From an uncultured bacterium (lineage in GTDB: Bacteria > Actinomycetota > Coriobacteriia > Coriobacteriales > Eggerthellaceae): a DNA stretch of 5,830 nucleotides. The translations under genes and the position numbers were made by a program. Where the stretch lies: the NCBI GenBank assembly GCA_947649215.1, contig CANSQW010000095.1:1-5830 (forward strand), read 5' to 3'. Below, piece after piece: positions 2,551-5,830 of this stretch (the stretch's first letter is position 1; every line of letters starts with the position of its first letter). The notes below the pieces were generated by a model. That model had not been told where the DNA came from, did no database searches, and was given only the letters and a program-made list of their open reading frames with translations.

Positions 2551-2565
2551 GATCGGCAATCACCG

Positions 2566-2576
2566 AGAGAAGAGAG
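2566..2576 (+). promoter_or_regulatory. Ribosome binding site for ATG 2583
   Basis: The purine run GAGAAGAGAG ends six bases before ATG 2583, which is good spacing. The alternative start ATG 2612 has GAGGAG at 2593-2598, 13 bases away and therefore less well placed. This favours 2583 as the native start of the surface protein, although the nine-G tract puts it out of frame in this copy. Confidence 0.55.
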
Positions 2577-2582
2577 ATCATC

Positions 2583-2642
2583 ATGGCACTACGAGGAGCG
2601 GCATTCCGAAAATGCCTCACGGGGGGGGGTGTCTCCTCTTAG
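2583..2642 (+). other. Frame-shifted signal-peptide leader: 19-residue product in the nine-G state
   Basis: From ATG 2583 the frame reads MALRGAAFRKCLT, enters the G run, and stops at TAG 2640-2642 after 19 residues. R4, R9 and K10 form a typical positively charged N-region of a secretion signal. If the tract had one more G, translation would continue as TGGG-CLLLGFALMVGVPALA, a complete signal peptide, into the 1,000-plus-residue surface protein. With one fewer G the frame would instead stop at bases now numbered 2680-2682. This segment is therefore best read as the true 5' end of the downstream gene in an out-of-frame state, not as an independent small gene. Confidence 0.65.
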
Positions 2643-5600
2643 GGTTTGCCCTGATGGTGGGAGTGCCGGCCCTCGCCGTTGACGAGGCGGTTCCGGCTCT
2701 GTCGGAGCAGGCGGCATCCCAAGCGGCGGGGGCGGACGCTCCCGCGAATCCTGAACCCGAGAATACTGATGACGCGACCGCCGATCCGGCGGATGCCCCG
2801 GCGTGCGTCGCTTCGATGGCGGCCCGGGCGGACACGCCGGCAGCGGCTTCGGCCCCTGCGTCGGCTCCTGTGGCCGTTGGCGGGACGGCCCGGGCGGCGT
2901 CCCTCGCCGACACGGGCATCGCGGTGTCCGGCGGCGCGGAGGGTTCCGACTATGACCTTGACGAGGGCGCCAAGGTCATAACGGTGCTCACCGGAACCCC
3001 GCTCACGCTCGCCGGCGAGTCTGCGGTCTGGGGCGTGCGCGTGGCCCCGGGCGTGAAGGCGAACCTCACCTTGGCCGGCCTGACGGTGGATCTGTCCGCC
3101 GTCGGCGGCATTCCGCTTGACGTGGCCACCAACCTCTACGATGTGCAGCCCGACGGCACCCAGCGCCTGAGCGCGCCGGCGGCAAAGGCCGACGACGTCA
3201 CCAACAAGACGACGCTTCTGCTCACCTTGGCTGATGGCACGGTGAACGTGCTCAAGGGCGGAGACGGCGCGCCGGCGCTCCACTGCGGCGAGGGGTCGGT
3301 GCTCGTGGTGGACGATGCGGTGGCGAACGTGGATAGCGAGGGCCGTCGCATCACGCCAGATCAGGGCGCGGTTCCCTACGACTGCATGCTCGCCAACGGC
3401 ACAGCCCTCAAGGAGGGCGACCCGCTCTACCTCATGGAGAGCGCTGACCCTGGTGTGCTTGAGTGCACGGGCGGCCCAGCCAGCACCGGCATCGGTTCGG
3501 GCCAGGACGAGAACTCCGGCGACATGACCTTCGACGGAGGCGTGATCGGGGCGGATGCCCATGCGCCCTTGGCATCGAGCGCACAGTCCCTGCCATCGGC
3601 GGGTTGCGGGATAGGCGGATCCCTTGGCGGCAGCGCCACCAAGACCACCTTTAACGGCGGCGTCATCATCGCTCGAGCGTCAGCCCATGGCTCTGCCATC
3701 GGCGGTGGTCCGGTGGGCAAGGCCGGCGCTTGGGGAGGTGGCGCGGGGGATGTCTTTCGCTCGCAGCTCCCCAACACCATCACCAACCCTAATAAGAGCG
3801 GTGGCCAACGCTGCGGAGACATCGCCATCAACGGCGGGAAGATCAGCGCAGAGGGCGGGGAGCACGGCTATGCCTTCGGCACGGGCTGCTTTCCCGCCGA
3901 CAACGCCGGCTGCACCGTCCTCATCACCGGTGGCAACCTCGTGCCCGAGAACGCGAACGGCGTGGGCCAGTACAGCGGATATCTCGGCGCGCCGAACGCT
4001 ACGGTCATCGTCCAGGGCGGCTCCTTCAATCTGGAGCCAGCCAACTTCACCGGCACGGTGACCGACGGGGCGGGCAACGCGCTCACGCTCGTCTCCATCA
4101 GCCTCGGTGAGGACTCCGAGGTCATCGGCTCGCGCATCAAGAGCCTGACGGTGAAGGTGGACGGCGTGCCGCTCGCCCCCGACTACGGTCTGCCCTACGA
4201 GGTGGACGAGAAGGGCAAGGTGTACTTCTGGCTGCCCGCCACCGTCTCGACTAAGCGCGTCACCGTGGCAGACCTCGCCGTCTACGACAAGGCGTCCGGC
4301 ACGGTGACCGAATCGGAGTACGACTTCGTCCTGCCCCATGAGGGCGAGGACGGCAACGTGGCCAAGCGCAACGTCGAGATTGACGTGACCGACCAGGTGC
4401 TGGCCGACGATGCTCTGCGCTCCCTCGTGCGGAGGCGCTACGACGGGCTGGCGGTTGACCCCGCCGCGCTGAAGGACGCCGTGGCGGCCCTCGGCGTGGA
4501 GACCACCAAGCCGCGTCGGGCGCCGGTCACGGAGATCGACGCATTCACGAGCCAACGGCTGCTCGACAAGGACGGCAAGCCCGACCCCGAGCCCATCAAG
4601 GAGGATGGCGACCGCTCCTTCAAGCGCGCCGGCACCTACGAGCTGGTGATGGAGTCGAAGCAGTTTACGCGCGAGGACCCCTCCTTCGGCGACTCGTTCT
4701 GGGGTCACTGGCTCCTGTTCGACGCGGTGATCGAGGCTGCCGATACGCGCGTCTACGACGTATCGCAGGAGCTGTCTTACGACGCGTCCGCACCGGGCAG
4801 CGGGGATGACGCGCCTGCCAGCCGTCAGGCCGGGCGCGCCGAGGAGGGCGCGCTTAAGTCCGTCACCTTCCGCGCTTCGGTCATGCCCAACAACCAGACG
4901 GGCGACGGCCTTCAGCCCGAGGCGCTCACCTGCGAGGCCCCGACGGGCACGGTGGCCTTCTCTGTGAACGGCGTGGAGGTCGGTACGGCGAAGCTCGAGC
5001 CTGCCGCAGACGTGAACAGTGCGGGGTACGCCTGGTCGAAGGCCGAACTTGAGTGGGATCCCGCCGGGGCGGCCATTCCGCGACGGCCTGACGGGCGCCT
5101 CGTGGTGGAGGCGCGCTGCGACGGCGACGAGAACTACCGCGGCAGCTCGGCGCGCCAGGCAGACGACGCCCTCACCGAGGACGAGGCGCCAGGCTACCCG
5201 CTCGTGGACGTGCCCCAGGTGTCGGTGGTGCCCGACGACCCTGACGATCCGGACGCCAAGCCGCGGCCCCTCGAGCCCACGGGCCCGGCCGAGGTGCGCG
5301 AGCCCGGCCCCGATGACCCGCCGGGAATTACGAGCACCGTGCACGTGACGGTGCGTGACGAGGTGCGGGTGCCTCCGAGCGAGGGCGACCCCCTCACGGC
5401 CGATGACCTGCGAAAGTGGGCCGAGGATCGCTATATCGTGACGCCGGGCTGCGAGATAGCCGGCATCACGGTGGACGGCTCGCCTGACGGCGTGATCGAT
5501 CCCTCGATACCCGGCACCCATGAGGTGCGCGTGGTCGTGCGCGACCCTAAGACGGGCAACACCACCACGGTGGTGGTCGACTACACGGTGGTCAAGCCGG

Positions 5601-5830
5601 ATGATCCCGAGGAGCCCGACGACCCTGACGGTCCCGATGATCCGCCGGCGCCGCCGACCACGGACGACCCCGCAGGGCCCGAGACTCCCGGTGGCTCTGA
5701 CGGGCCGCAAGACCCCGCCGATCCGCCGCGTCCCGTCGACCCGTCGAACCCGGGCGGCGACGCCGACCGCAGCGAGGGGGATCCTGCGACGAAGGGGCCC
5801 GCGGCCACGTTGACGCGCCTGGCGCAGACG
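2612..5830 (+). CDS. Large secreted surface protein with beta-helix repeats and Ig-like domains (3' end outside window), possibly phase-variable
   Basis: A single frame is open for 1,073 codons from ATG 2612 to the window edge without a stop. The start is uncertain. ATG 2612 is in frame as sequenced, but ATG 2583 has the better ribosome site and signal N-region and would be in frame with ten G. Order of parts, counted from 2612: hydrophobic signal segment CLLLGFALMVGVPALA ending in an ALA cleavage site (residues 7-22); Ala/Asp/Pro-rich linker (23-95); beta-rich segment resembling carbohydrate-binding-like surface domains (about 100-300); GG-turn beta-helix repeats (about 300-475); a mixed region of unknown fold (475-745); an Ig-like domain with PTGTVAFSVNGVEVGTA and GDENYRGSS (about 750-850); Asp/Pro linker; a second Ig-like domain (907-994) ending in GTHEVRVVV and TTTVVVDYTVV; Pro/Asp/Gly-rich linker (995-1069); and LAQT at the very end. 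It probably stands on the cell surface as an adhesin or glycan binder. No enzyme motif was recognised and the ligand is unknown. Confidence 0.85.
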   Translation, partial: MPHGGGCLLLGFALMVGVPALAVDEAVPALSEQAASQAAGADAPANPEPENTDDATADPADAPACVASMAARADTPAAASAPASAPVAVGGTARAASLADTGIAVSGGAEGSDYDLDEGAKVITVLTGTPLTLAGESAVWGVRVAPGVKANLTLAGLTVDLSAVGGIPLDVATNLYDVQPDGTQRLSAPAAKADDVTNKTTLLLTLADGTVNVLKGGDGAPALHCGEGSVLVVDDAVANVDSEGRRITPDQGAVPYDCMLANGTALKEGDPLYLMESADPGVLECTGGPASTGIGSGQDENSGDMTFDGGVIGADAHAPLASSAQSLPSAGCGIGGSLGGSATKTTFNGGVIIARASAHGSAIGGGPVGKAGAWGGGAGDVFRSQLPNTITNPNKSGGQRCGDIAINGGKISAEGGEHGYAFGTGCFPADNAGCTVLITGGNLVPENANGVGQYSGYLGAPNATVIVQGGSFNLEPANFTGTVTDGAGNALTLVSISLGEDSEVIGSRIKSLTVKVDGVPLAPDYGLPYEVDEKGKVYFWLPATVSTKRVTVADLAVYDKASGTVTESEYDFVLPHEGEDGNVAKRNVEIDVTDQVLADDALRSLVRRRYDGLAVDPAALKDAVAALGVETTKPRRAPVTEIDAFTSQRLLDKDGKPDPEPIKEDGDRSFKRAGTYELVMESKQFTREDPSFGDSFWGHWLLFDAVIEAADTRVYDVSQELSYDASAPGSGDDAPASRQAGRAEEGALKSVTFRASVMPNNQTGDGLQPEALTCEAPTGTVAFSVNGVEVGTAKLEPAADVNSAGYAWSKAELEWDPAGAAIPRRPDGRLVVEARCDGDENYRGSSARQADDALTEDEAPGYPLVDVPQVSVVPDDPDDPDAKPRPLEPTGPAEVREPGPDDPPGITSTVHVTVRDEVRVPPSEGDPLTADDLRKWAEDRYIVTPGCEIAGITVDGSPDGVIDPSIPGTHEVRVVVRDPKTGNTTTVVVDYTVVKPDDPEEPDDPDGPDDPPAPPTTDDPAGPETPGGSDGPQDPADPPRPVDPSNPGGDADRSEGDPATKGPAATLTRLAQT
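2621..2629 (+). repeat. Homopolymeric G9 tract inside the signal-peptide coding region
   Basis: Nine consecutive G lie 38 bases after ATG 2583. Runs of this length in a coding region are classical slipped-strand hotspots. A change by one unit decides whether ATG 2583 is joined to the surface-protein frame (ten G) or not (eight or nine). The run may also be miscalled, as long homopolymers are prone to sequencing error; either way the frame break is real in the given sequence. Confidence 0.85.
3524..4027 (+). repeat. GG-turn beta-helix repeats within the surface protein
   Basis: Five copies of a short strand-turn-strand motif with an invariant Gly-Gly occur in frame: MTFDGGVI (3524-3547), TTFNGGVI (3644-3667), IAINGGKI (3821-3844), VLITGGNL (3917-3940) and VIVQGGSF (4004-4027). 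Spacings are 40, 59, 32 and 29 codons. Between them are glycine-rich turns such as GIGSG, GCGIGGSLGG, GSAIGGG and GYAFGTG. This pattern is typical of right-handed beta-helix (pectin-lyase-like) repeats in large surface proteins of gut Gram-positives. The copies are diverged at DNA level, so this is an old protein repeat rather than a recent tandem duplication. Confidence 0.7.
5594..5818 (+). other. Pro/Asp/Gly-rich wall-spanning linker
   Basis: About 75 residues of low complexity, with repeated DDP, EEP, DGP and DPP units, follow the second Ig-like domain. A shorter similar linker (VPDDPDDPDAKPRP) lies near 5228-5272. Such acidic proline-rich stretches commonly lie just before the sortase signal and carry the protein through the cell wall. 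The repeated codons (GAC-CCT, GAT-CCG, GAC-CCC) could also allow length changes by recombination. Confidence 0.65.
5819..5830 (+). other. Probable start of a sortase-type motif (LAQT), cut by the window end
   Basis: The last four codons read LAQT, directly after the proline-rich linker and a short Thr/Ala/Lys segment. Variants of LPxTG such as LAxTG are used as wall-sorting motifs in some actinobacteria, so the next residue is expected to be Gly, followed by a hydrophobic segment and a few basic residues. The motif is incomplete here, so this is inference from position and pattern. Confidence 0.45.

Follow-up and report, generated by a model that had tools for sequence, protein, structure and literature searches.

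The G9 tract and its predicted surface-protein gene

The stretch of DNA analysed here (the window, 5,830 nucleotides) comprises bases 1–5830 of contig 95 (CANSQW010000095.1) in a draft bacterial genome, GCA_947649215.1. This draft of 1.74 Mb in 316 contigs is 57% complete and belongs to a relative of Adlercreutzia faecimuris, which is placed in the Eggerthellaceae and Coriobacteriia. Our subject is a homopolymer of nine G (G9) at 2621–2629 on the plus strand, read in the sequence with C on its 5′ side and T on its 3′ side, and its proposed action as a slippage switch near the start of a predicted surface-protein gene. It is the sole run of at least 8 G on either strand of the window.

Two parts of a predicted signal peptide lie in different frames around the tract. 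A short open reading frame at 2583–2642 (+; MALRGAAFRKCLTGGGVSS) runs from ATG 2583 across the tract to TAG 2640–2642 and begins with the charged peptide MALRGAAFRKC, the predicted n-region. A putative Shine-Dalgarno-like, purine-rich stretch, GAGAGAAGAGAG at 2565–2576 (+), lies 6 nt 5′ of this ATG. The hydrophobic core and predicted cleavage region (CLLLGFALMVGVPALA, 2630–2677, +) begins in another frame at 2630 and leads the gene body (2630–5830, +), which is open to the window end without a stop over more than 1,060 codons. When the tract is shortened by one G (G8), the ATG 2583 frame ends at TGA 2680–2682. The frame difference, both stops and a downstream frame of more than 1,000 codons had been described in the original prediction, and the sequence and its open reading frame translations confirm them all.

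The G9 between ATG 2583 and the body is a homopolymer of at least 8 within a reading frame, one of the features of a simple-sequence contingency locus. A change in its length toggles the frame of an otherwise intact gene, with ATG 2583 as the presumed start. At G9 three other ATGs (2537, 2612 and 2654), which the original prediction did not list, are in frame with the body. The one at 2612–2614 (+) is a possible weak start preceded at 13 nt by GAGGAG (2593–2598), and the gene at G9 may thus be weakly on instead of fully off.

Four genomes make up the genus set, namely the window's, A. faecimuris JBNU-10 (G001), Enterorhabdus sp. P55 (G002) and G003 (77% complete). The locus is present in 2 of 138 family genomes, the window's and P55. 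The P55 ortholog (L175, G002:C267) retains the G9, the stop behind it, ATG 2612 and GAGGAG. It also shares a 5′ block at 2521–2582 (+; 29 of 30, then 28 of 30 conserved), which is the predicted promoter and leader. Its sharp start at 2521 would suit a promoter and leader serving either ATG 2583 or ATG 2612, and speaks against a start at ATG 2537.

A promoter scan of 2100–2720 found no sigma-70-type consensus site and an Rfam scan of 2100–2800, up to E 1, found nothing. Beyond the two orthologs, the 5′ part of the window has short, scattered DNA matches in A. faecimuris and 13 genomes of other genera at E 1e-5 to 1e-3. We treated them as chance. Four of them fall in a reading frame that presumably resembles CdsA.

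The protein record P0001 agrees with the window frame at 100% in the search table, with a single R-to-Q difference visible, and continues it to a C-terminal LAQTG, a hydrophobic stretch and RRRSARR. We take this ending to resemble that of a sortase-anchored protein, and P0001 may be termed sortase-like from its visible C-terminal pattern. The LPXTG sortase-anchor model TIGR01167 gave no match to P0001, and the relative L032 reached 14.7 bits against a cut-off of 15.9. The clues to surface exposure are both predictions, the hydrophobic export signal in the window frame and the sortase-like C-terminus in P0001.

No family scored above cut-off in the Pfam and NCBIfam searches of P0001 or in the Pfam search of the window's part of the protein. 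The structure model, made mostly of strands, has a middling mean pLDDT (predicted local distance difference test) of 67. A structure search against PDB gave a best match of E 2e-3 with template modelling (TM) scores of 0.09 and 0.11, and no fold was assigned.

The window holds xseB, a HIT-domain gene, the acetate kinase gene ackA (892–2133, +; PF00871) and, after them, the gene of this large predicted secreted protein. A plasmid collection searched with the window returned no match.

Tracts across the protein family and the genomes

The homolog search of the four genus genomes gave 32 matched pieces at 14 gene loci. A G/C tract of at least 9 lies near the N-terminus at 13 of the 14, and the lone locus without a tract (L034) is the only one of the incomplete genome G003. 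The frame state is readable at 12 loci, one P55 contig ending exactly at its tract. Six are in frame (L032, L033, L036, L039, L041 and L044) and six are out of frame (the window, L035, L038, L040, L042 and L045). The out-of-frame copies keep the body open over more than 1,000 codons in 5 of 6 cases, the sixth being the P55 ortholog.

The tract occupies two positions in this family. It is poly-G inside the signal peptide in the window gene and its P55 ortholog, and poly-C just behind the signal peptide in the other readable loci. The descent of one accident would hardly account for a family whose tracts sit at two positions and use either base. Moreover, a paralog has C10 and is out of frame in the window's genome (L035/L117), and it has C9 and is in frame in A. 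faecimuris (L033/L086) and P55 (L032).

Outside the genus, a single-sequence scan of named genomes for the surface protein found nothing, and an alignment scan found six loci, two of them A. faecimuris and P55. G/C runs of at least 7 are absent from three of the others, two of them relatives in Erysipelotrichaceae-type metagenome-assembled genomes (L169, Candidatus Stoquefichus; L170, an uncultured Erysipelotrichaceae bacterium) and the third a weak match from Clostridiales (L172). The last, L173, is a weak match from Bacteroidia at 27% identity, in which C10 and C11 occur close to the start.

We compared the surroundings of all 57 A. faecimuris tracts with those of most of the 78 tracts in the window's genome. 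From the latter, 60 of 63 merged tract regions were taken; the three omitted are the contig of the window itself and two regions whose tract lies at the end of a contig. The pairing used 57 and 70 tracts, respectively, with the window's own included and tracts at most 40 bases from a stretch end dropped. Both flanks match in 12 pairs, and the lengths differ in 8 (9/10, 12/9, 10/12, 9/11, 10/9, 11/12, 9/10 and 9/11) and are equal in 4. L104/L120 (9 versus 10) was left out, as L120 is closer to L105 (10 and 10), and counting it gives 9 of 13. If L071/L131, both G10 by eye but below the pairing threshold, is counted instead, the ratio is 8 of 13.

Several of these tracts split recognizable genes. 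In the pair L098/L145, with 90% identical flanks, the tract in a signal peptide of the twin-arginine translocation (Tat) type is G9 in A. faecimuris and G11 in the window's genome. Both copies are out of frame by different shifts, and about 800 open codons follow the tract. A second such gene in the window's genome, L141, has a Tat-type signal split by G9 and is likewise out of frame, its open stretch after the tract spanning about 800 codons. The sequence RR[A/S]FLKTA ahead of the tract is what we take to be the Tat-type motif. All three genes (L098:2942–5424, +; L145:85–2569, −; L141:2412–4954, +) appear to encode molybdopterin oxidoreductases. Pfam confirms this type for L098 and L141, and NCBIfam models of the dimethyl sulphoxide (DMSO) reductase kind match all three below their cut-offs.

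In the regulator pair L081 (C9 at 3002–3010) and L125 (C11 at 2499–2509), the tract separates an N-terminal part of no Pfam family from a GerE (LuxR-type) DNA-binding domain, and in both genomes the two parts lie in different frames. The upstream part of another LuxR-type regulator, L134, was scored non-coding, and its tract may sit outside the gene. The MBOAT acyltransferase L109 is in frame at C9. The signal peptide L094/L147 is in frame at C9 in both genomes, its ATG frame being open across the tract. In A. faecimuris, 45 of 57 tracts lie outside called genes, some of them ahead of a response regulator or a transporter.

In one further pair, L100:8326 and L112:2502, the two species share a G9 in the same gene and neither copy is in frame. 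The cause could be a frameshift that has become fixed, or programmed slippage.

Run lengths do not fall off smoothly. G/C runs of 7, 8, 9 and at least 10 number 52/31/49/29, 84/40/44/13, 117/90/86/23 and 37/12/20/13 in the four genus genomes, and those of 9 exceed geometric decay in all four (P 3e-9, 7e-7, 0.03 and 7e-9, in the same order). Summed over the 138 family genomes, runs of 8, 9 and at least 10 number 1029, 1248 and 1364. Runs of 9 outnumber those of 8 in 35 of 39 genomes with at least 20 tracts. The excess is present also in the one-contig genome G056 (9, 24 and 30 runs of 8, 9 and at least 10), so contig-end artefacts are only part of the explanation. Separately, three contig ends of the window's genome (L122, L128 and L150) carry G runs of 19, 37 and 39, which look like sequencing or assembly artefacts and inflate the tract counts of draft genomes.

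Genes near the tracts avoid shorter runs. In the called genes there, within 0.23 Mb holding all 57 A. faecimuris tracts, runs of at least 6 number 30 versus 168 under synonymous shuffling, more than fivefold rarer, and G/C runs of 7–8 number 0 versus about 37 expected. Runs of at least 9 number 9 versus 4.3 expected. These loci were chosen for holding tracts, and the genes were called by a simple codon-score caller instead of a standard program. The remaining coding runs of at least 9 stand out despite the avoidance.

None of the 138 family genomes, nor any of the 92 at a completeness of at least 90%, gave a match to the mismatch-binding domain MutS_I, and 11 of 14 controls did. NucS_C matched none of the 4 genus genomes and 7 of 14 controls. 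With neither MutS nor NucS found, in a search of which MutL was not part, these cells would class as being without mismatch repair. According to PMC5290159, its authors found every analysed member of the Coriobacteriia to be without NucS and MutS-MutL. The missing MutS and NucS may be tied to the tract slippage here.

Contingency switching and its rivals

We consider it quite probable that the G9 at 2621–2629 is a poly-G contingency tract, by which the surface protein is switched on and off through replication slippage. Polymerase slippage at replication would add or remove one or a few G's, and the slips would stay uncorrected. At G10, MALRGAAFRKC would be joined to the hydrophobic core, and the protein would gain an export signal and be anchored at the surface. 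At G9 little protein would be made, perhaps in small amounts from ATG 2612. With eight or eleven G's, the body could be reached from neither start and no protein would result. The likely use is to vary the surface structure seen by the host, phage or neighbours. The contingency locus that the original prediction proposed is supported by the family tracts at 13 of 14 loci, the C10 and C9 of the paralog, the 8 of 12 differing pairs and the failure to find MutS in the family.

Several observations weigh on the other side. The tract is G9 in both genomes that have the locus, with no length variation. In the cross-genome comparison proposed earlier, lengths do differ at the paralog and at other loci. 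P0001, P0002 and P0003 all start with M[V/I]GVPALA, a G9-type start, and none was found with ATG 2583 in frame. Such a common start is expected if the tract is out of frame with ATG 2583 in all three records. Should ATG 2612 make G9 the working state, the switch would read the opposite way. Dinucleotide shuffles of the window produce a comparable G run in 34 of 200. A chance G9 is plausible in so GC-rich a window, so the tract itself is no evidence and the case is built on comparison.

The genome-wide data and P55 add further points of this kind. Over all 138 family genomes, runs of 9 outnumber those of 8 in 68 with 18 ties, and the reverse holds in 52. The one-contig genome G008 has 8, 4 and 5 runs of 8, 9 and at least 10. 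When scaled to the whole genome, coding runs of at least 9 are avoided too, being far fewer than expected. Some length differences may be sequencing or assembly errors, as the draft consists of 316 contigs and has G runs as long as 39 at contig ends. The P55 ortholog misses about 2.8 kb of its body and is frameshifted, with the gene ends left, although assembly collapse is possible. This deletion and frameshift suggest that decay may occur at this locus.

The original prediction spoke of two halves of a perfect signal peptide, which is overstated. Similarity to eight signal peptides of relatives was tried as support and gave 10.25 for the ATG 2583 frame versus 5.75 and 6.75 for the other frames. 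However, shuffles of the ATG 2583 piece matched or beat its score in 189 of 300, no better than chance, and the test was dropped. The third frame, which no model needs, came nearest to beating its shuffles (30 of 300), and the P55 frames gave 174, 130 and 39 of 300.

Our estimates for the rival explanations overlap and, with the favoured one, sum to slightly more than certainty. One rival takes G9 as the normal in-frame state from ATG 2612 or 2537, with the tract read as three glycines and every strain expressing the gene at G9. In that case the tract would be incidental or an off-switch upon change, which overlaps with contingency switching. We regard this as unlikely. It agrees with the G9 in both genomes with the locus, the G9-type frame shared by the three protein records and the GAGGAG kept in P55 at 13 nt ahead of ATG 2612. 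VGSKIGNH in the upstream G9 frame is similar to a segment that is open in the same frame in four family genomes, probably by chance. However, the conserved block starts only at 2521, too close to ATG 2537 to hold a conserved promoter and a ribosome site for it, and an export signal from ATG 2612 would be without lysine or arginine ahead of its core. Furthermore, GGG makes up 17% of glycine codons in called A. faecimuris genes, which puts three in a row by chance at about 0.005.

Programmed slippage of RNA polymerase or ribosome at G9 could yield a fixed share of full-length protein from a single DNA sequence with no heritable switch, and the pairs of the same length that are out of frame in two species (window/P55 and L100/L112, both G9) would fit it. 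It appears very unlikely, as the DNA tract length differs in 8 of 12 pairs and 45 of 57 A. faecimuris tracts are outside called genes. Simple decay, meaning an ordinary frameshift at a mutation-prone run with no functional switch, we rate slightly lower again. Runs would mutate easily without MutS or NucS and the P55 ortholog has its large internal deletion and frameshift, but the window body has no other stop. The relatives P0002 and P0003, at 89% and 85% identity, are open across 1092 and 1098 residues, which speaks against decay. So does the recurrence of the tracts in the family at two positions and in both frame states, in genes that otherwise avoid such runs.

The least probable rival attributes G9 to an error of sequencing or assembly, with a true tract of one fixed length that is in frame. 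The draft does carry the artefact-like G runs at contig ends, but both ends of the window lie over 2.6 kb from the tract. The base-calling error that the original prediction had allowed for as the source of G9 is made less probable by the separately sequenced P55 ortholog, which is likewise G9.

Contingency switching at the window gene may be one part of a wider system, which we propose tentatively and as slightly more apt to fail than to hold. The Eggerthellaceae, with no known mismatch repair, would possess a genome-wide poly-G switchboard of dozens of self-mutating G/C tracts. These would toggle surface proteins, LuxR-type regulators, an O-acyltransferase and Tat-exported molybdenum reductases, and clonal-looking gut populations would be surface and metabolic mosaics. 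The window gene would be one switch with three settings (strong, weak and off) made from three frames and two ATGs.

Known systems and further tracts

The molybdopterin oxidoreductase class takes part in drug and catechol metabolism in Eggerthella and its relatives. If the proposed switchboard is true, the gut bacteria of this family hedge their surface proteins and regulators through tract slippage. The tract state could then explain metabolic differences among strains, or among cultures of the same strain, despite the presence of the genes, and surveys of gene presence would miscall such metabolism. How a lineage that lacks MutS and NucS uses its hypermutable runs also becomes a testable question.

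G tracts of about 9–10 in Campylobacter jejuni, for example in Cj1295, reportedly shift the frame of surface-related genes. Their host is Gram-negative, and no common ancestry with the window tract is implied. Gardnerella belongs to another class of Actinomycetota.

As PMC11287997 describes, Gardnerella carries many homopolymer tracts of at least 8, about a quarter of them in genes and often with surface-protein motifs such as LPXTG, and colonies of one strain had mostly 9 bp with a minority at 10. It is like the present case in being of the Actinomycetota with tracts of at least 8, but its variation is shown there by colony sequencing and ours comes from genome comparison. Cutibacterium (Propionibacterium) acnes has 54 variable homopolymeric tracts, 96% of them G/C, in and between genes, and the paper also cites tracts associated with putative surface proteins, dermatan-sulphate adhesins being one example (PMC4746626). 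It differs in that its repeat lengths are reported there to follow clades largely, a slow change (PMC4746626).

Within the same family, Eggerthella lenta varies its surface reversibly in phase, but by large DNA inversions at a capsule locus instead of homopolymers, as PMC13174815 reports. In that text slipped-strand mispairing is named only as a general mechanism, and the terms homopolym, slippage and frameshift are absent. Phase variation of a prophage is also described for E. lenta in PMC8778435.

The original prediction knew of no such locus in this kind of gut actinobacterium. This stands for the Eggerthellaceae and Coriobacteriia, for which our search of open-licence papers found no report of homopolymer phase variation. 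It does not stand for the phylum, where Gardnerella and C. acnes have such tracts. Hence, the locus type is already known, and the family-wide set of tracts including the molybdoenzymes is the more novel part.

Two other tract pairs are of separate interest. L065:2802–3261 and L122:2302–2763 are nearly identical between the species over about 450 bp except for the tract (G10 versus G12), and the sequence further upstream is unlike, perhaps marking a mobile or recently shared element. The G10 at L082:3002 and the G9 at L121:2502 lie right behind TTGAC, between inverted repeats (GTCATAGA and TCTATGAC) and ahead of a large gene. This tract region is a possible candidate for a variable promoter or operator.

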